Of a stretch of DNA of 34,175 nt, positions 1,325 through 34,175 are shown one piece after another. Origin of the DNA: a virus; IMG/VR virus record IMGVR_UViG_3300025873_000020, positions 1 to 34,175 of that record; one strand, 5' to 3'. The notes below the pieces were generated by a model. The model searched no databases. It saw nothing but the letters and a program-made list of their open reading frames with translations, and was not told where the DNA came from. Positions within the stretch are counted from its first letter, which is position 1; each line of letters opens with the position of its first letter. The translations under genes and the position numbers were made by a program.

Positions 1325-1571
1325 TTAGACATAATCAATCTTGTGCGAACCAGAGCAAAAAGGGGGTTCAGGTTCCTTTCCTGGTCATAACCAAGCACTT
1401 ACGCAAAAAAGCGGGGCGACCCCATGACCTTCGCACAACCCTCGTCACTACATCTAGTGGTCAAAGAGGGGGGGGGGGTCGAGATTTTTCCGGCCCGCCG
1501 GACCGCGACCGATTACGCCGTGCAAAAAAATTTATGCAGTTGGCGCGTTGCGGTTGGGCGTTTCCCCGCCT
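1314..1571. other. Control region upstream of terL with 11-G run and small palindromes
   Basis: No gene is recognisable here. Visible elements are an uninterrupted run of 11 G (1468-1478); short hairpins CACTA-CATC-TAGTG (1446-1459) and GGGG-CGA-CCCC (1413-1423); a near-palindrome around CTGGTCATAACCAAG (about 1381); and an A-run flanked by TGCA (about 1520-1537). The region separates divergent genes and precedes terL, so it should hold late-operon control and possibly a packaging (cos/pac) site. No consensus promoter for terL could be identified with confidence. Confidence 0.35.
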
Positions 1572-3194
1572 ATGCTCCGCGACATGGCACTCACCTGGAC
1601 TCCGCACCCAGCCGTCCCCGTCCTCACCTCGGAGGAGATGAAGGCTATGGGGGCGGATAGGGTCCTCGACTATTATAACAAGCGCGAGTCCGCGATAGCC
1701 GCTGAACGGGACGACCCCTATCGGCACGGATTTGAACTCGAGCCGTGGAGGCGGGCGGATCGCGAATTGGCCACGCACCAGGAAATCCTCGTTATGGGAG
1801 GAAACCGCGCGAGCAAGTCTGAATGGGCTGCGAAAAGGGTTGTACAATGTTTAGTCAATAACCCCGGCACTATTATATGGTGCCTTACTGAAACGAGCGC
1901 CAACAGTATACAGTTCCAGCAGAAACTTTTATTCAAATACTTGCCGAAGGAGTTTAAGACTTTGGGACGTGGTCACGTCGGTTATGTCGTATACTCATTG
2001 CGCAACGGATTCACGGCCTCGAAGTTCAGCCTACCCAATCGTTCAGAGTGCATATTCCGGAACTGGTCCCAGGACATCTCGACCATTGAGGGCGGCGAGA
2101 TCGGCAGCCCCCAGGAAGCTGTGGGAGGCTCGGAGAATATCGGTTTCTGGGCAGATGAACTTATTCCTTACAGTTGGCTACAAACAATACGTTTTCGCAA
2201 CGTGACGAGGGCCGCGAAGGGGCTGATTTCATTCACCGCCGTTGACGGCTGGAACCAGGTGGTCAAGTCTCTCCTGACGGGCGCCCGCACAATCGAGGAC
2301 GCCCCCGCCTCCCTGATTCCGGGTGAGCGGGTCCCCCTGGTTCAGCAGCCCCTCCGGAAGGCATCCTCGGTCGTCTATTTCCACACCTCGGAAAATCCTT
2401 TCGGCGGATGGTCGAACATGGAGGCGCAACTGGAGGGGGAGAAGCGGGACGTGATCTTGTGTCGAGCTTACGGAGTCCCGACTCGAGCAAGCCGGACGGT
2501 CTTCCCGAACCTGAGCGACAAGAACTACGTCGACCCCGCGAAGATCCCCATTCTGGTTGACCCCGAGAAGAACCCGGCCACCTGGGTCCTCTCCATCGAC
2601 CCTGCGGGAGCGAAGCCGTGGACGATGGTCTTGTTCGGGATAGACGCCCACCAGGTTGCGTGGGCGGTCTCGGAGTTCCCCGACTTCGGCACTTTCGGCG
2701 CCTGGATGGACATGTCGAAGGGCGAGAAGGGGCGCCCCGGCGAGGCGGCCCAACCGAACGGCTACGGCATTCGGGATTACGCCGAGGCCATTCGCGTGAT
2801 GGAGGACGGGCGGGACTGCCTGCGAATCATCGACCCCCGGATGGGGGCGGCTCAATACTCGAAGGCCGAGGGCTCGAGCAACATAATAGATGACCTCGCC
2901 GAGGAAGAGATCACGGTTTATCCTGCGGAGGGCCTCGACATCGAGACGGGAATCCAGGCGATCAACACCCTGCTCGCCTGGAAGACGACCGAGCCGATGA
3001 GTCTGGAGAATAAGCCTCGTTTTATGCTTTCGTCGGAGTGCCAGAATCTGATTGCCTGCCTTCAGGAATACCAGACCGGCGACCTCAAGCACCCCGCTAA
3101 AGATATGGCTGATATTTGCCGCTATTTCGCGGTGGGAAATTTCGAGCACTACGGGGAAGATGAAATGCGGGCTACCGGAACGGGAGGATATTAA
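1572..3194 (+). CDS. terL: Terminase large subunit (TerL)
   Basis: This is the ATPase and nuclease motor that packages DNA into the prohead through the portal. The N-terminal ATPase has a Walker A-like GGNRASKS (residues 76-83) and a Walker B-like FWADE (acids at 195-196). The C-terminal RNase H-like nuclease shows VLSIDPAG (D343), IIDPRMG (D421) and a late acidic motif in KDMADICRY. The length of 540 residues is normal for the family. The start is uncertain: ATG 1572 is used here, ATG 1584 (MALTWTP) is equally plausible, and neither has a clear Shine-Dalgarno. The Walker A has A in place of the more usual G before SKS. The gene begins the packaging/head operon and is followed within 1 nt by a small HTH gene. 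Confidence 0.95.
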   Translation: MLRDMALTWTPHPAVPVLTSEEMKAMGADRVLDYYNKRESAIAAERDDPYRHGFELEPWRRADRELATHQEILVMGGNRASKSEWAAKRVVQCLVNNPGTIIWCLTETSANSIQFQQKLLFKYLPKEFKTLGRGHVGYVVYSLRNGFTASKFSLPNRSECIFRNWSQDISTIEGGEIGSPQEAVGGSENIGFWADELIPYSWLQTIRFRNVTRAAKGLISFTAVDGWNQVVKSLLTGARTIEDAPASLIPGERVPLVQQPLRKASSVVYFHTSENPFGGWSNMEAQLEGEKRDVILCRAYGVPTRASRTVFPNLSDKNYVDPAKIPILVDPEKNPATWVLSIDPAGAKPWTMVLFGIDAHQVAWAVSEFPDFGTFGAWMDMSKGEKGRPGEAAQPNGYGIRDYAEAIRVMEDGRDCLRIIDPRMGAAQYSKAEGSSNIIDDLAEEEITVYPAEGLDIETGIQAINTLLAWKTTEPMSLENKPRFMLSSECQNLIACLQEYQTGDLKHPAKDMADICRYFAVGNFEHYGEDEMRATGTGGY

Positions 3195-18962: not shown

Positions 18963-21900
18963 ATGGCTGGTCGGACAGCTATAAGGGGCCTCCCTTTATC
19001 ACAGGCCGCCTTGGACTATCTGGGAGAGGTAGAGGAACCTTCGGTCCCTATGGGCCTCCCCCTGTCGCCGGCTGGATTGGACTATCTCAAGGCCGCGAAC
19101 ACATCGTCTCGGCCCATAACGATGGACGTCGCTCTCTCGGATTTCGACACCTTCAAGGCATTGAAGGACGCGGGGTTCTTTAAGAGCGACGTGGGAGCCG
19201 CCGAGATGGTGTGGGAAGGCGGCAAGCAATTGGTCAAGGACGTGGGGGCATTCGGAAAGTTTGCCGCCAAGGAAGCGGCTGGCGACAGGCCGTACCTGCT
19301 GGGTTTCCCCGGAGTTGCGGCATACAACTTTTTCCTCGGCGGGAATAAGGAGCGAACCAAGAAGGAGGAGGCCAAGGCCAAGGCGACGATGTCGCAGACC
19401 CTCGGCAACGTCGGCCTCAACTGGGAAGCATTGGCTTCCGGGGGCAAACGGGTATTCGACCAAGCGGTCAGCAATCCTTGGGTTCTCACCGTCCCCGGCG
19501 GTCCTCTCTACAACCTATTCTTTGGCGACGAAACCACTGAGGAGGATCTCCAATCGTCCTACGAGTTCTGGAAACAGTCCAACGAAATAGAGAAGCAGCG
19601 GGCGAATGTAGCCGCCGAGATGGCGGAAAGCGATTTCTGGATGATGGGGGTTGACCCGGAGGTCAGGGAATTGATCGCCTCGGGTGAAGTTAAGCCCGAC
19701 ATGCCGGCGGCAATGGGAGGCGCTCTTGCAGCCGATCCTCTCAACTGGCTTCCCCTTGGGGCTGCGGCACAGGCCGCAGGGGTAGGCAGACCCCTCCTCA
19801 CGGGGGCGAACATGGCCTTACTCAACGACACGGGAAAACTTTTGTTTCTCAGGGAAGCGACGAAAGTCGCCGCCAGGAAAACCTCGGACGTCAGGGTCGC
19901 CGACAAATTGCTGGGCAACGCCGCAGCCATCAATCGAAAGATTGCCGAGAACGAGGGCAAGCTCGCTCCTCTCGCGAGGCAGCGAACCGTCGCCCTCGAA
20001 ACCTACGCCAAGCAACGCCCCTTGGGGGACCCTCTTCGCAAGTCGATAGAGGGCGCCTTGGAGGGCGCGCCCGTACCGGGACGGACCACCCCCGGTGCAG
20101 CCGCACTGGGGGGCACTATGGTGGCCGGTGGGAAGACCGCCGAAACCCTCGGCGGCGTACTTGACTTTATATCCACCGTCTCCGCAGAGATAGCGGTCAC
20201 CCTGCTCGTCAAAAGCGGTATGCCCGAAAAAGCCGCCACCGACGTACTCGGCTATGTTTCAAAGTATGGAGCAAGGGGTGCGATTGGGTTGGGAGTGGTC
20301 GGTCTTTCGGACAGCGACTACGACGTTCTTTTGGGCCTGGGGGCGGCCCTGGGCCCGGCCTTCCTTTCCCGATTCGGCAGGGACTTCGCTGTGGCCGGGA
20401 GGCAGATGATGAAGGCAGAGACGGAACTGCCGTACATAACGAGGCTTCGCTCCGTAGGGCCTGAACGATTGGTGGATCAGGCCATCGACAGGACTACCTT
20501 TGGTTCAACGGTAGGTTCGACCTTCAGACGATCCGTGGGAGCGGCTGAAGGAGGAATCGGAAAAAGGATGTTCGGCACTACCGACGTCGCAGGGAGGACA
20601 AGCGGCATGGGGCCGGCCTCGAGCGCCCTAGCCAGGTTCCTTGATCAAACGAAGGTGGGCAGATGGGCGGAAACGGGGGGACGAATAGCGGAGGGAGCCG
20701 CTCACGGCGGCGCAGTTGGAGGGGGCTTTGGTTACGTCGCGGGAGGCGGCGAAATGCCCGAGGCAACGCTCGGGGGCGTGGGCATGGGACTCGTCCTAGG
20801 TCTCGGCGGCGGGGCATTCGGCCAATGGACTCGATTCGCGAACCCCGCCCAACACGTACAGGCCCGTCATGGGGATTTGCTTTATTACCGAGACAACTAC
20901 CTGCCCGCAGGCGAGAAGGAGGCTTTCGGGAAACTGCCGAGGGCGACACAGATGGCAGTCGCCTCCAAGCAACTCAGTCACCCTGATCTGGTCTTCCATT
21001 TCGTCAGAAAGGGAAAAGGGGGGGAGGCGGGAGGTCACTACGTCGAGGACGCCGGTACGGGTCACGGGGTGGGCCATATCGAGGTAAACGTGGATTCGTC
21101 CAGGGCAATCGAGCCGCTCATTGCTCACGAAGTCGTGCACGACGTCGACGCTCGGAGCGGGATGAAGGCGTTCGACGACTTTCTCATAGGCAACGTCTTC
21201 ACCGATACGCCGGGGTTTTTCTCTGAGCGAGTTACCCCGGAAACCAAGAGTCTTCACCCCGAACTTGAGGTAGGGGACTACATCATAATCGGCGAGGCGG
21301 GGAATCCGAGGAACCCTCGTCGATACAAGACCAACGAAGAATTTGATAAACGCCGGGAGGAATACGGCGAGGCAATCGGGGTGACGGAGGGGAGGGGCGA
21401 AATCCTGATGACGGACGAGAGAGTCGTTCGGGAATTGGTGGCCGAGCATGGGGTTGACTATCTACTCAACGACAAGCGCCGCTATCGAGACTTACACGAA
21501 GGCCCCATTGGGGCGGTGATGAGAGGGCTGATGCAGACCGAACTGGTGAACAGCCGCCCCCTCCTCAAGAAGATGATTGGAACTATGGGGGGAGGGTTTC
21601 GACCCGAGGGGGGCCTGGATTCCCCGAACGCTCTGTTCAAGGATATGCAGCGCATACCCGAGGTCACCGAGTTGGTCCGAAAATACAACATGAAGCTGGA
21701 GGGTGTGGACCTCGAGACGAGGGGGAAGAAATTCACTTATCCCGAGGAGGTCAGCACCATCAAGGTCGAGGCCGCCGACATAGCGAAGCAGCCCGAACTA
21801 ATCGACTTGATGCGGGCGGGTACGCTCCTTCGGGTGGACAAGGACGGCAAGGTATCGGCATCCCACGCCATGACGCCCAGGGAGAGGGGAAAGTACAACA

Positions 21901-24900
21901 GGGATTTCTCCGCTGCGGTAAGGGATTCCATCGCCGCCGCCAACGAGCGAGGCGAATTGACCGAAGGTCACGTCAGGCCCATCGAGACGGCTACGGGGGA
22001 AACCCGGTTTGAAGGCCGCTACATATCCAAAGCGGTCATCGACGCCGTCGAGACGCAGGGCATCTGGAACAAGGAGCAGATCGACCTCCTCCGCAGGGTT
22101 AACGAGGTCCTTGAGAGGGGAGAGGGTGACGAGTTCCTCCTGGCCTATTTCAAGGCCACTCCAAAAGGGGGTGGCCGTTACGTCAATGCATCCGTCCAGA
22201 TGGTGACGGAAGTTCCCTACGGTATCGAAATTTCCAAGAAGGGCAATGTCCTCATCCGAACCGTAAACGTCGACCAGTTGGTCAAGAACATCGAGAAGCT
22301 CTTCCGTACCCAGCCGCGCGAGATGGCTCGCCTATTCGGTCCCGACGAGTCAGGCGCCAAGCATGCATTCCACGAGGCCCTCGACCGCTACCACCGCAAC
22401 CACGCCGAGGGGAGGTCCGGCGAATACCTGCTTGATGCTGACCCCGCCCTGGCAGAGCAAAAGCGAAACCTCATCAACTCCGTATTCGGTGCGGGGCGAA
22501 AGGCCCAACTGGACGCAAATCCTTGGCTTGCGGGACTGGGCAAAAAGGCCCCCAGACCGCCGTACAGGAGCCGCCGCCTCGAGCGGATCGGTAAGGTCAC
22601 CCAACTTTCGGGCAAGCGCCCCGTAAACTATGAGAAGATAGCTCGGAACCTCCTGCCAGCCGAGTCAAAGGGTCGCCCGGAGAAAATTCTGCTTCGGACC
22701 ACGCCGGCCGTAAAGGCTCGCGCGAAAGCGGTGGCCGCCGAGCGAGGGATTTCCATGAACGACGCCCTGAACGTGGCCCTCGAGGAGGCCCTTCCGGGGC
22801 GGGAGACCCCAGTGCCGGAGCGGGCTGAAGGTGATATCACCTTGAAATTGACGCCGGAGGAGGAGGCCCTCCTCGCCAAACCCGAGATAGGCGAGCGCGA
22901 GGCCGACGCCTACCGCGAAGCGGTCTCGAAACGTAGAAGGATCGCACACCGGGATTTGCGGGCGAGGCCGCCGGAAGATAGGCTTTTCATGCCCCGCGAG
23001 GACGAACTTCCGCCGCTCCCTTCGGGCGAACCGGCGGGGCCGCGTTATGACCCGAAGCTTTGGATCACCCGTAACGCAAAGGTCTTTGGCCCGTTTTCCC
23101 GCGATGCGGTGGAAGGTTACCTACAATCGAACCGGATTTCGCCGGATGACTTGGCGTGGGTCGATGGAATGGAGGACTGGGGGCCGGTTGACAAGGTCCT
23201 CGGGGAGCCTTCTTACCCTCCCCCCGAAATGCGAGCGCCCAAAGACCCGAGGCAAGCATTCGAGGAAAGGGGCTTCCAGTCGCCGCTCGCCCAAAAGTGG
23301 CTGACGAAGAGCGGGACCCAAGTGCCGGAATTGGCGGAGAAAATTGGGCGGAAATTCGAGCCCACCATCTTCTTTCATGGGGGAGAGGTCGGGCTACATC
23401 AGTCTCGCGGCAGCAGTGAATATGCGTCGGAAGGTAGATTTGAGGGCGAATTCAAACCCCCGGAGGACCCCGAGGGCCGGTGGACCTTCGAGCCCGGCTC
23501 GCCGGTATGGCTCGCTAGGGATGAGTATTTCGCTCGGGAGTATTCGCCGGGGATTAGAGACCCGGTCCGACTGATCACGCGGGTCACGAAGATTTTCGAT
23601 CCCTCGGACCCGGCGCACGCCAAGCTCTTGCACGAATACTACGAGGAACATGGAATCTTGGGCTGGGACATGGAAAAGGGGCGGAATACCGAGAGCAGTC
23701 GAAAGCTAAGTCTCAACGAGCAGGCGCTCTCGTATAAACACGTCCAATACGGGTTCGACACGCTCCAGGCGCTGGGTTTCGACGGCATGTGGGAGAGTCA
23801 ATTTCGCGGCGACAGCGACACCAAAAGACTGAAGCGGCGCATCAAACGCCTGAGGGAAGATCCCGATTTCTTTCGGGATGAAACCCAGCTTATCGTATTC
23901 GACGGCTCCGACCTCAAACTGGCCGCCGACCACGAGATCCCCGTCAGCGGGGAATTTACGGAGAGCGGCAGGCTCTTCATGCCGGCCGGCGACCGCCCCC
24001 TCGGCCTGTCGGACAACATCCGCGACGTCGTCCTTCCGGGCATCCGGCAGGATAAGTTCAGTCGAGGGCAGCTAGAGGCGGCCCTGAGGAAGACTGCGGG
24101 GGCCAGGGCATACGCCGACGAGATCGGCCTGATCGATTGGCTGAAGGATCGAAAGAGCGTTACCAAGGCCGAGGTGGATGCCTTCGTCAAGGAGAACGCT
24201 CCGAGGCTGGAGGAGAAGGTGCTGGAAATGACCGATCCCGGTGGCGGCCCGAATCCTCCTAAATTCTCCGATCCTAAATGGAACGAACCCGGCGGGACGA
24301 ACTACCGGGAAGTGGTGATCAAGTTGCCGGTCGAGGAGGGGAAGGCAGTATTCCCCGACCCCCTACACTTCGGGGACAACGTCTTGCTCTGGCTTCGCCT
24401 GAACGACCGCATAAACGTAGACGGAAAGAAGGTGATGTTCATAGAGGAAGCGCAGTCGAATATGCATCAGACGGGGAGGAAGGAAGGGTATGGTGACACC
24501 ACCACATCGGGGTGGATCGCTACGCGCCAACCTGACGGGAACTGGACAGTACGCAGGGAGGATGGAGAGGTGCGGCATATCAACGTACCAGCAACCACAG
24601 CCGAAGAGGCTATTCGTGCGTCCTTTGACCGAAGCACGCCGCCGCGCAGGGGAGTCCCAGACGCGCCCTTCAAGAAGAACTGGCCCGCCCTCGCCCTCAA
24701 GCGGGCAATCAAGGAAGCCCTCGAGGGCGGCTACGACGAAATCGCATGGTTGGGCGGCGAGGCTCAGGCGGCGAGGTATGATCTGTCGAAGCAGGTGGAT
24801 CGGATTGAATGGACAAGTTTAGAGGATAAGCCGAAACAACGTTTGCTATCCGTATTTTCTAAGGCGGGGGCTAACTTAGAAGACGGGGGTAGGATTTACA

Positions 24901-27728
24901 ACGAATGGATTCCAGAAAACAAAATTCAAGACATAATTGGAAAGGAATTGGCCAGAGAAGTAATAAAGGACTCCTCTGGTTCACTCTCCGGCCTCGACCT
25001 CAAGGTCGGCGGCGAGGGCATGAAGGCATTCTATGACCGCGAACTCGCCTCCATCGCAAAAAAGATTTCCAAGAAGATAGGCGGCGGAAAGGTCGGGAGA
25101 AGCGTGCTTCTCCGAACAGCCTACCCGAAAAATCCTCCAGGCGGCCAGTATGAACATGCCTACTACACCGGCTTCAAACTCCCGAAGAATCCGCAGGCCG
25201 TCGAGAATCTCACGCTGTACATGCCCGCCGAGAAGGCCCCCTCGGACGGCAGGCCCCCCGAACTGATTTACGAGATCGACAAGAAGGGCCAGACCATGCT
25301 GCCTTTCGAGAAAGGATTCCCCCGGAAGGAGGAAACGGAATTCGCCAAAATCTGGAACGAGGACGCCGAAAAGACGGGCGCCCCAAAGGTCGGCACGGGC
25401 GAGATCGGGGAGCCCCCTCCGGGCTGGGAGGCGGGAACCCCGAGAGAGACGAAGGGAGCTTTCGACCCCAGGGCGCCGGACAAGCTCTTCATGCCGGCGG
25501 AACGCGCCGGGGCGCCGAAGGGAAAGGCAGAGAGGGGAGAAGTGACTGTGGGTGAATCGGGTATACTTCTCTATCGACCAAAGCGCGCCCTCCTCGCCGA
25601 AGCTAAAAAACTGCAGGCGGAGGTTTTAGAGCGGGACCCCACCATGGAACCCATAGCCGAGGAGGATATGCACCTGACCCTGGTGAGTCGCCACAAAGCC
25701 CCCAAGGGAATACGCAAGGTTCTCCCCCTGCCTGACTTCGAGATTACACTAAAGGAACCCCGGCACGCCCTAGAGGGTCAGAAGGAGTCGTGGTATGCGG
25801 AGGTGGCCGATCAAAAGTCGGTGGATGACTGGGTTCGCGGGAAGTTGCTTGGGACCAATCCCGATCCGACGAGAATTTACCACATAACTCTGGCGAATAA
25901 GACGGGGAACCCAAGGGATTCCATCGCGTATCCCGAGCCAAGCAAGATTGGCGTCCGCACCGAGCAGGAAATCGCGAAGACTTTGGGCAAACCTGCGTGG
26001 GAGTTGGAACCGCACGAACTGCCCAAGCATGTCTTTTTAAGGGAGTACGCTTCAAGTGGAGTGGATACCGGGGCATATGTGAAACAGCATCAAACGGCGA
26101 TAGAAGACGCTATCGCGGCAGGGAAGCATGTGCCTTACGAGGTGGTAAAAGACTACCCCTCCCAGATGATTCGGTGGATGGCGAGGGATAATACGGGTTA
26201 CCGAGAAATGGGCAAAGGCCACGAAGTCGCCCGTGGGGGTTCCGACAAGCTCTTTTTGCCGGCGGCCCCGGAGGATGCCTCGCCCAACACCGTTTCCTCC
26301 TGGGGGGATGGCGACTCCCCGAGCTTCCCCGCAGGCTACCGACGAGGTCAAGCCGGGTCCAATGAAGATGTGGGGAAACTCTTTCAAGAGAAGTACGTCG
26401 AGAAGTACGGCGAGCCCATAGACCCCTACGACTATGGGCCGGAGGCTATAGAATGGCTGGCTGATATGATTGCGGGCGAAGGCGAGGCGGCGCTTAAACG
26501 AAGGGGCAACGCCGTGGATTGGTACACGACCGCCGTTGAGCGGGCCATGACCATAGCCGAGGAAATCTTTCCCGAAATCAAAACCTCGGCAGAAGCGAAA
26601 GACCGATTCCTGGGGGCGTTGGCGATCACCAGCCAGAACATGCGCGTCTTCGAGAACGCCAAGGCCGCAGTCTACCAGTACGAGCACAAGGCGAAGCACG
26701 GGAAGTTCGACTATGAAATCAACCACGGGGAAAAGGCTCCGGCCATCACCAAGAACCTGCGAGCGTTCGATTTGCTTGAGGCAAAACTAGGTGACAAGTT
26801 GCCTGGTTTTTTTGACAAGGATTTTACGGTCCGCGAGTTGACTCAGTTCGGAAAAAAGTTCTTTGGTGACGAGAAGTTCGCCATCGACGGTAGAATGGAT
26901 GACGCCGTGAAAGGTTCCGCAGTCTTCGGCCCGAAGATTGGGCAAGGTTTTTTCCAGAACCTCAAGGGCAACTACGATCCCGTAACCATTGACCTGTGGT
27001 TGAGACGAACCTTCGGCCGGCTGACGGGCAGGTCGGTGGACGTCAGCCTTTCTCCACAAGCAATCGGGAGGCTGATTTATTCCCACCGGAAAAACACGGG
27101 GAGGCACAAGACCGACTTCGACCTTCCTGATTTTTTGCGAGGTCTGAAGATTTCAGGCTCCATCGCCAAAGACGGAAAAATGCATTTCAAAATCTCAGAC
27201 CGGGCTTTCGAGAGGCTTTTCGGCGAACATGAGCAGGGCGCGGCGAATACCGATGCCGTCTTCCAGTTGGCGGGGCGACTATCCAAGGAATGGGAGCGGA
27301 GGTTTGCCGCAGCGGGAAGGAGTGTCGCGAAGGCCAAATCGGAGCTTCAGGCGAGGGTATCGCCCAAAAAGGGATTTCGGACCGGGAAACCGACCAAGCG
27401 ACTCGCAGCCCGCCTCGCCAAGGCCGAGGCGGAAAAATCTAAGCTACAGGCAGAGAAACCATTCTGGGCTTATGCGGCCACGTCCATCAGTGGAAAACTG
27501 AAGCCCATCGATATCCCGACTCCGCAGGAGAGGGCGGTCATCGTTGAGGCGTTCGGCCGGGCCCTGGAGATACTTCGAGAAAAGGGATACGACTTGACGC
27601 CGGCCGATCTTCAGGCAACCCTATGGTATCCTGAAAAGGATATTTGGGCTTTCCTCAAGGGCGACAAGGCCGATGCCCTAAATATATCCTACGACCAGGC
27701 GATGGAGAAAATACGAGATGCCAGATAA
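18963..27728 (+). CDS. Giant 2921-residue polyvalent protein (metallopeptidase, RHH, GYF_2, ART-like, 2H phosphoesterase and more)
   Basis: An uninterrupted 8.8-kb ORF. In order: two copies of GLPLS.A.LDYL at the N-terminus; Gly/Ala-rich, partly membrane-compatible segments (about 250-640); HEVVH (722-726), an HExxH metallopeptidase signature; an RHH-like helix pair (KAVAAERGISMNDALNVALE, about 1255-1280); a GYF_2-like domain (about 1360-1410); an ADP-ribosyltransferase-like region (about 1465-1660, starting PTIFFHGG); a domain of the large-polyvalent-protein class with FIEEAQSNMHQ and GGEGMKAFYD (about 1780-2050); a 2H phosphoesterase with HLTL (2237) and HITL (2307); a glycosylase-like segment with TIDLWLRR (about 2675); and a coiled-coil C-terminus. 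LFMPA-like motifs recur at 1341, 1671, 2085, 2175 and 2430. It probably enters the host with the DNA and acts on several host targets. Domain names other than HExxH, GYF_2 and 2H are tentative. Confidence 0.75.
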   Translation: MAGRTAIRGLPLSQAALDYLGEVEEPSVPMGLPLSPAGLDYLKAANTSSRPITMDVALSDFDTFKALKDAGFFKSDVGAAEMVWEGGKQLVKDVGAFGKFAAKEAAGDRPYLLGFPGVAAYNFFLGGNKERTKKEEAKAKATMSQTLGNVGLNWEALASGGKRVFDQAVSNPWVLTVPGGPLYNLFFGDETTEEDLQSSYEFWKQSNEIEKQRANVAAEMAESDFWMMGVDPEVRELIASGEVKPDMPAAMGGALAADPLNWLPLGAAAQAAGVGRPLLTGANMALLNDTGKLLFLREATKVAARKTSDVRVADKLLGNAAAINRKIAENEGKLAPLARQRTVALETYAKQRPLGDPLRKSIEGALEGAPVPGRTTPGAAALGGTMVAGGKTAETLGGVLDFISTVSAEIAVTLLVKSGMPEKAATDVLGYVSKYGARGAIGLGVVGLSDSDYDVLLGLGAALGPAFLSRFGRDFAVAGRQMMKAETELPYITRLRSVGPERLVDQAIDRTTFGSTVGSTFRRSVGAAEGGIGKRMFGTTDVAGRTSGMGPASSALARFLDQTKVGRWAETGGRIAEGAAHGGAVGGGFGYVAGGGEMPEATLGGVGMGLVLGLGGGAFGQWTRFANPAQHVQARHGDLLYYRDNYLPAGEKEAFGKLPRATQMAVASKQLSHPDLVFHFVRKGKGGEAGGHYVEDAGTGHGVGHIEVNVDSSRAIEPLIAHEVVHDVDARSGMKAFDDFLIGNVFTDTPGFFSERVTPETKSLHPELEVGDYIIIGEAGNPRNPRRYKTNEEFDKRREEYGEAIGVTEGRGEILMTDERVVRELVAEHGVDYLLNDKRRYRDLHEGPIGAVMRGLMQTELVNSRPLLKKMIGTMGGGFRPEGGLDSPNALFKDMQRIPEVTELVRKYNMKLEGVDLETRGKKFTYPEEVSTIKVEAADIAKQPELIDLMRAGTLLRVDKDGKVSASHAMTPRERGKYNRDFSAAVRDSIAAANERGELTEGHVRPIETATGETRFEGRYISKAVIDAVETQGIWNKEQIDLLRRVNEVLERGEGDEFLLAYFKATPKGGGRYVNASVQMVTEVPYGIEISKKGNVLIRTVNVDQLVKNIEKLFRTQPREMARLFGPDESGAKHAFHEALDRYHRNHAEGRSGEYLLDADPALAEQKRNLINSVFGAGRKAQLDANPWLAGLGKKAPRPPYRSRRLERIGKVTQLSGKRPVNYEKIARNLLPAESKGRPEKILLRTTPAVKARAKAVAAERGISMNDALNVALEEALPGRETPVPERAEGDITLKLTPEEEALLAKPEIGEREADAYREAVSKRRRIAHRDLRARPPEDRLFMPREDELPPLPSGEPAGPRYDPKLWITRNAKVFGPFSRDAVEGYLQSNRISPDDLAWVDGMEDWGPVDKVLGEPSYPPPEMRAPKDPRQAFEERGFQSPLAQKWLTKSGTQVPELAEKIGRKFEPTIFFHGGEVGLHQSRGSSEYASEGRFEGEFKPPEDPEGRWTFEPGSPVWLARDEYFAREYSPGIRDPVRLITRVTKIFDPSDPAHAKLLHEYYEEHGILGWDMEKGRNTESSRKLSLNEQALSYKHVQYGFDTLQALGFDGMWESQFRGDSDTKRLKRRIKRLREDPDFFRDETQLIVFDGSDLKLAADHEIPVSGEFTESGRLFMPAGDRPLGLSDNIRDVVLPGIRQDKFSRGQLEAALRKTAGARAYADEIGLIDWLKDRKSVTKAEVDAFVKENAPRLEEKVLEMTDPGGGPNPPKFSDPKWNEPGGTNYREVVIKLPVEEGKAVFPDPLHFGDNVLLWLRLNDRINVDGKKVMFIEEAQSNMHQTGRKEGYGDTTTSGWIATRQPDGNWTVRREDGEVRHINVPATTAEEAIRASFDRSTPPRRGVPDAPFKKNWPALALKRAIKEALEGGYDEIAWLGGEAQAARYDLSKQVDRIEWTSLEDKPKQRLLSVFSKAGANLEDGGRIYNEWIPENKIQDIIGKELAREVIKDSSGSLSGLDLKVGGEGMKAFYDRELASIAKKISKKIGGGKVGRSVLLRTAYPKNPPGGQYEHAYYTGFKLPKNPQAVENLTLYMPAEKAPSDGRPPELIYEIDKKGQTMLPFEKGFPRKEETEFAKIWNEDAEKTGAPKVGTGEIGEPPPGWEAGTPRETKGAFDPRAPDKLFMPAERAGAPKGKAERGEVTVGESGILLYRPKRALLAEAKKLQAEVLERDPTMEPIAEEDMHLTLVSRHKAPKGIRKVLPLPDFEITLKEPRHALEGQKESWYAEVADQKSVDDWVRGKLLGTNPDPTRIYHITLANKTGNPRDSIAYPEPSKIGVRTEQEIAKTLGKPAWELEPHELPKHVFLREYASSGVDTGAYVKQHQTAIEDAIAAGKHVPYEVVKDYPSQMIRWMARDNTGYREMGKGHEVARGGSDKLFLPAAPEDASPNTVSSWGDGDSPSFPAGYRRGQAGSNEDVGKLFQEKYVEKYGEPIDPYDYGPEAIEWLADMIAGEGEAALKRRGNAVDWYTTAVERAMTIAEEIFPEIKTSAEAKDRFLGALAITSQNMRVFENAKAAVYQYEHKAKHGKFDYEINHGEKAPAITKNLRAFDLLEAKLGDKLPGFFDKDFTVRELTQFGKKFFGDEKFAIDGRMDDAVKGSAVFGPKIGQGFFQNLKGNYDPVTIDLWLRRTFGRLTGRSVDVSLSPQAIGRLIYSHRKNTGRHKTDFDLPDFLRGLKISGSIAKDGKMHFKISDRAFERLFGEHEQGAANTDAVFQLAGRLSKEWERRFAAAGRSVAKAKSELQARVSPKKGFRTGKPTKRLAARLAKAEAEKSKLQAEKPFWAYAATSISGKLKPIDIPTPQERAVIVEAFGRALEILREKGYDLTPADLQATLWYPEKDIWAFLKGDKADALNISYDQAMEKIRDAR

Positions 27729-28669: not shown

Positions 28670-29413
28670 ATGGCTATACTGACAGCATCACCATCCTCCG
28701 ACGACGGGCCCATCACGGGCTGGCCTCTCGGAGATAATCCACCCGCCGCCGGCCAACAGGTCGCCGTCTGCATCGACATCAAGGACTCCCTCGGCCACGA
28801 GCGTTCAGTCTATGACGATCCCACCCGTACCGAGTTTGTGGACCTCACCCGCTTCCTCTTCGGCCTGCCCGATGGTTCCATGATTCAGACGAAGGAAATG
28901 AAAATCAGCGGCCACGAGAAGAGCGCCCTCATGGCCTTCCTCACGGGATGGCTCGGGTCCGCTCCCCCGCTCGACGGGAGCTTCGACATTTCCTCCATGA
29001 AAGGCCGAGGAGCCCAAATCACCATCGCCCACAAGGTTTCGCAGAAGGGCAAGACCTACGCCGACGTGGTCGGCATCAGCCCCGTCATGGAGCAACTGGC
29101 CGCCCAGCTTCCGCAGGCTGCAAACTTTACCGTTCCCGTTTCGGCGAGTCCATCCGCACCTGCGCCGGCCCCATCGCCGGTTCAGCACACACCCTCGCCG
29201 GCGGGAGCGGTATCTTTCAACTCGCAGCCGGTTCAACCGGCTCAACCGGTCCAACCGGCTCAACCGGTCCAACCGGCCCAACCGGTTCAGCCTCAACCGG
29301 AGGTCGACGTCCAGCCTCAACCGGCCCAACCGGTTCAGCCTCAGCCGGCAGCCGACGTCCAGCAGACGCTGGGCGGTTTCACCCAAGTCCCAACCCAGAC
29401 GACCCCATTCTGA
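28670..29413 (+). CDS. Putative single-stranded-DNA-binding-like protein with QP-repeat tail
   Basis: A 247-residue protein. The N-terminal part (residues about 20-150; MKISGHEKSALMAFLTGWLG; GRGAQITIAHKVSQKGKTYA, then DVVGIS) looks like the compact OB-like domain that precedes a recombination exonuclease in many phages. Residues about 150-247 are a disordered Pro/Gln/Ala tail of QPVQPA repeats ending in GGFTQVPTQTTPF, like the flexible tails of SSB proteins. Upstream there is no Shine-Dalgarno, only an A-rich leader. SSB function is inference from position and layout. Confidence 0.5.
   Translation: MAILTASPSSDDGPITGWPLGDNPPAAGQQVAVCIDIKDSLGHERSVYDDPTRTEFVDLTRFLFGLPDGSMIQTKEMKISGHEKSALMAFLTGWLGSAPPLDGSFDISSMKGRGAQITIAHKVSQKGKTYADVVGISPVMEQLAAQLPQAANFTVPVSASPSAPAPAPSPVQHTPSPAGAVSFNSQPVQPAQPVQPAQPVQPAQPVQPQPEVDVQPQPAQPVQPQPAADVQQTLGGFTQVPTQTTPF
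29228..29352 (+). repeat. 9-bp minisatellite inside the SSB-like gene
   Basis: Tandem variants of a nine-base unit with a CAACCGGTC/CAACCGGCT core encode the QPVQPA tail. Interspersed longer copies of CAGCCTCAACCGG and GACGTCCAG follow. Nine-base units keep the reading frame, so copy number can vary without frameshift, changing only tail length. Confidence 0.8.
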
Positions 29414-32143: not shown

Positions 32144-33901
32144 ATGATAGCTTTAGACCTAGAAACTGTCTGGTCGGACCAGTACTCGGTGGCCACCCTC
32201 GGCCTCGACCGATACGTCCTAAACCCCCAGTTCAGGGTCACCCTCGTGGCCCTCTGGAGTCCCGAGTTCCAATGGGTGGGGCCTCCCCTCGAGTTACCCG
32301 TCGAGCGGATACGGGGTCAACAACTCTGCGCGCACAACGCCGAGTTCGATTCGGTCTGCTGCCGCCTCGCAATCCACCGGGGCCAGATGCCCGCCTTCGA
32401 GCCCGCCGGCTGGACCTGCACCGCCGACATGGCCTCCTGGCACCAAGTCCCCCGAAGCCTCAAGGGAGCGACGAAAGAACTTTTCGCCATCGACATGTCG
32501 AAGCAGGCCCGCGACGACATGAAGGGCCTGGACCCAGAGATGGTCGGCGGCAACCCCATCTTCAGGCAGTATGCCCTAGATGACGCCAAAGCGTCATGGG
32601 ACATCTGGAACGAATTACAAATCGGGTTTCCCGAGAAGGAGGCCCTCCTGTCCGAATTGACCCGAAGGATCGCGGGCACCGGGCTGCCCTTCGACGGGCC
32701 GATGGCGAACGATTTCATAATGGCCCTCGAGGATTCGGAATTGGTCTGCGAAAAGGAGATCCCCTGGAGGCGCGGGCCGAAGCCCGCCGCCATCGGGTCA
32801 ACCGTCGCCCTAATCGAGGCGTGTAAACTGGCCGGCATCCCCCCACCCCCATCGACCAACGAGAACGATCCCGAGTGCATGGTCTGGAAAGCCACCTATC
32901 CCGCCCAGGGTAAATGGGTGGACGCCATGACCCGCCACCGAAAGGTTACCAAGGCGGCCAAGCAGCTTCTAAGCATTCTCATGCGGAAGAGACCCGACGG
33001 CCGGGTATCCACTCGCCTGAAATACTGCGGCGCTCCCCATACCGGTCGCTGGTCGGGGACCGGAGGCGTGAACTTCCAGGCCCTCCCGCGAGGCGAGGTC
33101 GAGGGCACCTCGGTAAAGAAGTGCCTCTCAGCCCCCGCCGGGAAAGTCCTCGTTACCGTGGACCTTTCACAGATCGAACCCAGAATCCTCCACTGGCTGG
33201 CCGGCGACATGCCCTTTCTCGGCCTCCTCGCCGGGGGCATCGATCTATATGAAGCGCACGGGCGAGCGAGCGGCCTCTACCAGGAGGACGAACCGATGAA
33301 GGATTTCGCCCCCGAACTTCGCCACCTCTGCAAGGCTCGCGTCCTCGGCCTGGGATACGGTTGCGGGGGTCAGCGATTTGCCGCCGTGGCGGAAGCCCTC
33401 ACGGCGGGCAACCTCACGCTCGACGCCGCCCAAGCAGCCCAACAGGTAGCCGGCTACCGGAAACAGAATCCCCTCATCCCCGCCCTCTGGCAGAAGCTGG
33501 AAGACTTCGTCACGGCGTCCATCTCCCAGACTGACGGCGACATCGTCGTGGTCGAGACTCGGAGCGGGAAGCCGATCAGGTATTTCGAGGTGAAGGAGGA
33601 GGCCGGACGACTCTCCGGAACGACCGTCCGAGGCGGCCCCCGAAAGAAGCTGTGGGGCGGTCTGCTGACCGAGAACCTGGTTCAAGCAACCGCTCGAGAA
33701 ATTTTCGCGGACGGCCTCCTCAAGGTCGCCGCAGCCAACCTCCCAATCTGCCTGCACGTCCACGATTCGATAACCGTGGAGGTGGCCGAGGCTGAAGGGC
33801 GGGCGGCTCTGGACCTAATGGTCACATTGATGACCGAGCCGCCGGCATGGGCCGAGGGCCTTCCCCTCGCCGCAGAGGGTGAAGTGAAAGGATATTATTG
33901 A
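32144..33901 (+). CDS. Family A DNA polymerase with 3'-5' exonuclease domain
   Basis: A 585-residue replicative polymerase of phage type. Exonuclease: IALDLET (D5, E7), AHNAEFD (D69) and YALDD (Y143, D147), so proofreading should be active. Polymerase: motif A VTVDLSQIE (D340), motif B CKARVLGLGYG (K397) and motif C HVHDSITVE (H540, D541). It is short for the family and has no 5' nuclease domain, as in T7-like and other compact phage polymerases. Its TGA overlaps an ATG at 33901. The GGCNN repeat array starts 14 nt later. Confidence 0.95.
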   Translation: MIALDLETVWSDQYSVATLGLDRYVLNPQFRVTLVALWSPEFQWVGPPLELPVERIRGQQLCAHNAEFDSVCCRLAIHRGQMPAFEPAGWTCTADMASWHQVPRSLKGATKELFAIDMSKQARDDMKGLDPEMVGGNPIFRQYALDDAKASWDIWNELQIGFPEKEALLSELTRRIAGTGLPFDGPMANDFIMALEDSELVCEKEIPWRRGPKPAAIGSTVALIEACKLAGIPPPPSTNENDPECMVWKATYPAQGKWVDAMTRHRKVTKAAKQLLSILMRKRPDGRVSTRLKYCGAPHTGRWSGTGGVNFQALPRGEVEGTSVKKCLSAPAGKVLVTVDLSQIEPRILHWLAGDMPFLGLLAGGIDLYEAHGRASGLYQEDEPMKDFAPELRHLCKARVLGLGYGCGGQRFAAVAEALTAGNLTLDAAQAAQQVAGYRKQNPLIPALWQKLEDFVTASISQTDGDIVVVETRSGKPIRYFEVKEEAGRLSGTTVRGGPRKKLWGGLLTENLVQATAREIFADGLLKVAAANLPICLHVHDSITVEVAEAEGRAALDLMVTLMTEPPAWAEGLPLAAEGEVKGYY

Positions 33902-33914
33902 TGGATTTTTCATT

Positions 33915-33995
33915 GGCGCGGCTGGGCGCGGCTGGGCGAGGCGAGGCCGGGCGGGGCGAGGCAACCCATCGGGCTTCGGCCCGACAGTTTTCAGA
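33915..33995 (+). repeat. Array unit 1
   Basis: Ten pentamers (33915-33964) with variable pairs GC, TG, GC, TG, GA, GA, CG, GG, GA, AA. The tail hairpin is TCGGGC-TTCG-GCCCGA (33969-33984), then CAGTTTTCAG. Unit length 81 nt. Confidence 0.9.
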
Positions 33996-34088
33996 GGCGT
34001 GGCGAGGCCGGGCCTGGCCTGGCGAGGCGAGGCTCGGCGAGGCTCGGCAAGGCAACCCATCGGGCCGAGAGGCCCGACAGTTTTCAGT
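33996..34088 (+). repeat. Array unit 2 (GNRA-loop variant)
   Basis: Twelve pentamers (33996-34055) with variable pairs GT, GA, CG, CT, CT, GA, GA, TC, GA, TC, AA, AA. The tail hairpin is TCGGGCC-GAGA-GGCCCGA (34060-34077): seven base pairs instead of six, loop replaced. Unit length 93 nt. Confidence 0.9.
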
Positions 34089-34175
34089 GGCGCGGCATGG
34101 CGAGGCGTGGCGTGGCGAGGCGTGCCACGGCGAGGCGAGGCGAGGCAACCCATCGGGCTTCGGCCCGACAGTTTT
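34089..34175 (+). repeat. Array unit 3 (cut by window end)
   Basis: Twelve pentamers (34089-34148) with pairs GC, AT, GA, GT, GT, GA, GT, then one deviant GCCAC (34124-34128), then GA, GA, GA, AA. The hairpin is TCGGGC-TTCG-GCCCGA (34153-34168), then CAGTTTT at the window edge. Confidence 0.9.

Follow-up and report, generated by a model that had tools for sequence, protein, structure and literature searches.

A probable array of VIPR guide RNAs at the contig end of a tailed phage

VIPR is a phage weapon described in 2026 (preprint PMC13142463, bioRxiv 2026.04.26.720920). Its protein, Vipr, is a phage-encoded, CRISPR-RAMP-like protein of ~20 kDa that binds guide RNAs (vrRNAs), each made of 9-16 YNNGG repeats, with GGY conserved and NN hypervariable, and of an invariable structured 3' tail (PMC13142463). 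The arrays flank vipr and are carried mainly by phages, the NN letters recognise double-stranded DNA with a one-base skip and no PAM, and the system represses competing phages, prophages and satellites, NN-dependent DNA targeting having been shown (PMC13142463). Expression of RNAs of ~100 nt, their binding by Vipr, the one-base-skip rule and repression are all established by that paper, which distinguishes seven types and proposes that this gapped-code, RNA-guided DNA recognition is older than CRISPR (PMC13142463).

We analysed a window of 34,175 bases, the complete IMG/VR virus record IMGVR_UViG_3300025873_000020, which ends on its right side in three pentamer runs of 10, 12 and 12 units (33915-34175). 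We are highly confident that they form, in a tailed phage, an array with three or more VIPR guide RNAs. Its features, with the upstream neighbour, are as follows.

32144-33901, plus strand: DNA polymerase I family gene of the phage (PolA), upstream neighbour of the array and gene-order marker (Pfam/PHROGs scan)
33915-33964, plus strand: candidate vrRNA 1, variable region of 10 GGCNN units (direct reading); NN GC TG GC TG GA GA CG GG GA AA
33965-33991, plus strand: candidate vrRNA 1, constant 3' tail with CCCA, hairpin TCGGGC-TTCG-GCCCGA (33969-33984) and CAGTTTT (fold -11.3 kcal/mol, z -1.9)
33996-34055, plus strand: candidate vrRNA 2, variable region of 12 units (direct reading); NN GT GA CG CT CT GA GA TC GA TC AA AA
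34056-34084, plus strand: candidate vrRNA 2, constant 3' tail with CCCA, hairpin TCGGGCC-GAGA-GGCCCGA (34060-34077) and CAGTTTT (fold -14.9 kcal/mol, z -3.9)
34089-34148, plus strand: candidate vrRNA 3, variable region of 12 units, with GCC for GGC in one (34124) (direct reading); NN GC AT GA GT GT GA GT AC GA GA GA AA
34149-34175, plus strand: candidate vrRNA 3, constant 3' tail, stopping at the record's last base (tail comparison and fold)
34139-34175, plus strand: 37-bp exact repeat of 33955-33991, common to units 1 and 3, its last base being that of the record

The first-pass annotation had described strictly phased pentamers with a fixed GGC; the runs of 10, 12 and 12 bear out the phasing, whereas GGC is exact in only 33 of the 34 pentamers (GCCAC at 34124). 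As it had also noted, all three runs end in GGCAA and continue with CCCA, a hairpin and CAGTTTT; the hairpin is the same in units 1 and 3, and that of unit 2 has another loop and one pair more. The variable dinucleotides do differ between units, any two agreeing at 2-3 of 10-12 positions, and the entropy of NN in the array is 1.6-1.8 bits per position. The motif GGCNNGGCNNGGCNNGGC (four GGC in phase) occurs 21 times in the window, always inside the array, whereas 100 dinucleotide-preserving shuffles give an expectation of 0.02; outside the array, the longest GGYNN run in the whole window has 3 units. Pentamer counts within the published range of 9-16, NN that differ from tract to tract and a constant hairpin tail after each tract are thus all found here, as in VIPR.

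CRISPR arrays consist of identical direct repeats of ~21-40 nt with unique contiguous spacers of similar length between them. We rule out such an array in the window, where the variation lies in the NN of every pentamer and a tandem-repeat search of the array returned a period of 5/93 only. The first-pass annotation was correct in excluding a CRISPR array, iterons and a microsatellite, and two of its suggestions, a guide RNA and a reading five bases at a time, were the right ones, the layout matching that of vrRNAs (PMC13142463). By the same token, its statement that no named system has this layout does not stand, and its G-quadruplex, template and recombination or replication readings gained no support.

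The window is of phage origin, as indicated by a SU10-type major capsid protein, a phage exonuclease, a phage DNA polymerase and the IMG/VR listing, and so agrees with the occurrence of VIPR mainly in phages and proviruses. Its relatives are few: a search with PolA returned a single distant locus (L132). The protein encoded at 1548-3194, called terminase by position, had no Pfam or PHROG match and one relative in phage records, at 31% identity (Phage C75C1), which suggests poor sampling of this phage lineage. One ORF of 2921 aa (18963-27728) takes up about a quarter of the record, and an imperfect tandem repeat at 29228-29363, within the ORF at 28670-29413, codes for a QPAQPV-type linker. The window contains no tRNA genes. 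Scans of 14 window proteins with Pfam and/or PHROGs revealed no cas genes, the record being incomplete at the array end; a weak match to a PHROG named 'CRISPR/Cas system associated' is the phage exonuclease at 29415.

The architecture recurs widely. The pattern (GGCNN)9GGC matches at least 120 IMG/VR viral contigs, where the arrays are mostly intergenic, lie in many different phages and keep GGC fixed while NN changes, with several blocks per locus. Blocks end differently from phage to phage, in 4-nt phase breaks, in hairpins or in nothing obvious, and many arrays directly precede a ribosome-binding site and start codon. In SUSP1 (L131), arrays lie on both sides of ALH47069.1 (195 aa). A Vipr profile, built up from the SUSP1 Vipr as its only seed on the ORFs of 122 loci that the DNA pattern alone had retrieved, found a Vipr gene in 89 of the 122, in every case at most 1 kb from the array (median 20 nt, distances being taken from stop-to-stop ORFs) and on its strand in 88 of the 89. 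One further Vipr appeared in L037 once short, truncated ORFs were admitted; there was none in 51 control viral loci fetched for other patterns. Conversely, when the search was seeded with a protein of the L022 clade, same-strand GGYNN arrays were found within 2.5 kb in 60 of 79 Vipr loci. The support that the first-pass annotation had asked for in advance, that arrays recur in other phages and differ in NN, was therefore obtained, with Vipr adjoining in most loci.

Two comparisons bear on the nature of the linked protein. A profile of array-linked proteins (40 rows, SUSP1 among them) matches PDB entry 36pp, 'SUSP1 Vipr protein' (E 2e-32), and an AF2 model of the L022 protein, obtained without SUSP1 (pLDDT 92.4), is matched by RAMP chains from Csm and from CRISPR complexes of type VII (E down to 5e-07). 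As modelled for the L022 protein, a Vipr linked to arrays has a RAMP fold. Guides differ between loci with closely similar Viprs: in eight loci with Viprs 79-100% identical to that of L022, the NN of the first array agree at 9.7% of positions, and GGC and the tail are kept. The change of NN between close relatives is turnover of guides and not a fixed element drifting. Two PHROGs of unknown function, phrog_4652 and phrog_5926, include the SUSP1 Vipr and the adjacent vap1 and can now be named.

The survey also produced several side observations on arrays. No Vipr was recognisable with SUSP1- or L022-type profiles by the GGCNN arrays of L116, L127, L113, L078, L027, L111, L031 and L106, several of which have both flanks; their Viprs may belong to divergent types, or the arrays may be orphans. 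Runs of nearly pure (GGCAC)n, (GGCTC)n and (GGCAG)n with no Vipr (L065 9715-9772, L102 5653-5710, L103 11147) are probably false positives of the DNA pattern, either microsatellites or coding repeats. In other loci (L015 1995-2351, L030 5698-6000, L125 2402-3556, L130 7833-8111), the blocks of one phage are set apart by a recurring break of 4 nt, such as TTAT in L130 and CGCA in L030, which moves the phase by one and is placed like a comma between guides. These are perhaps the staggered arrays of the preprint, whose main text names staggered and hammerhead arrays and not a tRNA-like module (PMC13142463). We observed a module of the latter kind after arrays near Vipr in L021, L084, L211/L212 and L214, with a T-arm (GGTTCGANTCC) on an acceptor-like stem and, in most of them, no complete tRNA gene. 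Of 597 arrays, 14 (6 loci) have the T-arm motif at most 120 nt away, and elsewhere it occurs only 15 times in 4.6 Mb of strand sequence. Stem and T-arm are present in the folds of at least two of these modules, which may serve as a tail or as a signal for processing by RNase P/Z.

The window itself has no detectable Vipr gene in its 34 kb (best E 1.9 and 6.7), and the record ends inside the array. It stops at 34175, so any flank bearing vipr or vap past the array falls outside it. The contig probably breaks within the array, at the 37-bp repeat: short-read assemblers are expected to stop at an exact repeat such as the one closing the record, and the array therefore probably continues. Gene order points the same way. 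In L101, PolA (28% identical to that of the window) comes first, followed by an array, by vipr, by a gene homologous to SUSP1 vap1 (28%, E 3e-14) and by further arrays; L083 likewise has PolA upstream of its arrays and vipr. Because the break is inside the array and the order of PolA and array is that of L101 and L083, the simplest expectation is that the phage's own vipr probably lies a short way beyond the end of the contig. Near vipr, the L022 clade also has distant relatives of the RuvC-like and SSB-like genes present in the window.

A different account of the missing gene would be that the phage carries guides only, an orphan vrRNA array, and depends on a Vipr from a prophage of the host or from a co-infecting phage, or jams it. 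The window's 34 kb without Vipr would fit it, as would the other contigs that have arrays, both flanks and no detectable Vipr (e.g. L116, L127, L113, L078). Yet the contig breaks inside the array, and 89 of 122 loci have vipr at most 1 kb away; moreover, several of the loci without Vipr are also cut at an edge near the array, and L037 gained its Vipr with truncated ORFs. We consider an orphan array improbable. The same low credence goes to its stronger version, an undescribed VIPR subtype with a short, terminator-like CCCA-hairpin-CAGTTTT tail, in a phage that has no vipr of its own and borrows or jams that of a competitor.

Readings outside VIPR fare worse still. TRAP, a ring-shaped RNA-binding protein, uses 11 triplets with 2-nt spacers, and the arithmetic of the window is the same (fixed triplet, 2-nt spacer, ~11 units); a platform for a TRAP-like protein, acting on translation of the next gene or on its attenuation, NN serving as free spacers, would also suit the many arrays just ahead of a ribosome-binding site and start codon. 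But the arrays are linked to a RAMP protein, their NN are replaced wholesale between near-identical relatives, and a cis-regulatory site needs no several distinct units per locus. The published NN-dependent DNA targeting and repression (PMC13142463), if valid for the window's clade, largely refute this platform, to which we give almost no credence. Just as hard to credit is a microsatellite, an assembly artefact or a low-complexity coding repeat. A few matches to the pattern do consist almost purely of (GGCAC)n or (GGCTC)n and have no Vipr (L065, L102), but in the window NN entropy is high, GGC fixed, the tails constant and the layout of the units non-coding, and recurrence of the architecture in more than 100 unrelated contigs with vipr adjacent refutes it.

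If the window encodes VIPR guides, as we favour, each unit would yield a transcript of ~80-90 nt comprising the GGC/NN run and the constant hairpin tail. Vipr subunits, small proteins of RAMP fold, would oligomerise along it, each holding a GGC, and the exposed NN would pair with double-stranded DNA, one target base being skipped between pairs (NNxNNxNN...). Once bound, the target, which is usually a competitor (phage, prophage or satellite), would be transcriptionally repressed. For the window, both transcription of the array and its targeting of a competitor are putative.

Searches of viral and genome contigs returned no convincing natural target for the three guides. One-base-skip seeds of eight NN from guides 1, 2 and 3 matched 7, 17 and 27 viral loci. 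Extension of these matches stayed at chance level except in L139, where 20 of the 22 letters of guide 2 agree, a result that is weak after correction for the number of tries and at a site that is not wobble-aligned. Under the one-base skip, guide 3 (11 NN) had no exact match in genome contigs; guide 2 (10 NN) had 3 there, at chance level and in unrelated proteins (VERLL[DE]ES[DE]S). Matching of guides against loci with 0-3 skips, over 2.3 Mb, gave no clear excess at any skip, and the high-ranking matches of the window at skip 1 are biased, the loci having been fetched with the same seeds. Over 348 guides, the first base of NN is G-rich and the second uniform, and codon positions 1-2 fit them better than background does (log-likelihood -8919 against -9094). 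The codon coherence of NN guide by guide is not significant (reached by 365 of 2000 shuffles), so we do not use codon-likeness as proof.

VIPR is already published, and what is new here is a further example with a tail of its own, not a new system. The window thus adds to VIPR a phage with its own tail type. The survey, made from raw DNA and without the authors' data, finds GGYNN arrays and Vipr together in dozens of phages, with guides that turn over between near-identical Viprs. A simple DNA pattern finds such arrays even where the protein is missing, and each of them is a readable list of the phage's presumed rivals.

The tails closest in plan to those of the window are found in the L022 clade of IMG/VR VIPR loci (L022/L184, L037/L208, L186-L196, L070, L100), where GGCNN arrays lie directly behind vipr and the runs similarly end in GGCAA, followed by a short linker, a hairpin and AGTTT. 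Since GCAAAC can pair with GTTTGC in the L022 clade, the final constant GGCAA of the window's runs probably belongs to the tail; this outer pairing is reduced in the window. The likeness is one of plan, and we do not claim homology. A covariance model of L022-type tails (R1) did not match the window's tails and no other viral contig matched the window's tail pattern, hence we regard this tail as the window's own. Rfam, searched on the window at both thresholds, gave no family (best sub-threshold E 2.6-3.1), and blastn of the array against phages returned only a spurious 31-base match.

Class 1 CRISPR arrays resemble that of the window in joining variable guide parts to a constant RNA handle and in having a RAMP-fold partner protein, but the window lacks direct repeats flanking contiguous spacers, its variable letters being two in every five. 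The type II VIPR of SUSP1 stands nearer. Its arrays are mostly GGT, whereas those of the window have GGC in all but one pentamer, and the plain 6-7 bp hairpin with CAGTTTT of the window has no visible sequence relation to the SUSP1 tail. Neither vipr nor vap is present in the record, and assignment of a type needs the Vipr. Nevertheless, the arrays of the window and of SUSP1 are both phage-borne, both have 9-16 pentamers with a fixed GGY and variable NN, and in both the consecutive units are shorter than 100 nt, each with its own constant structured 3' tail.
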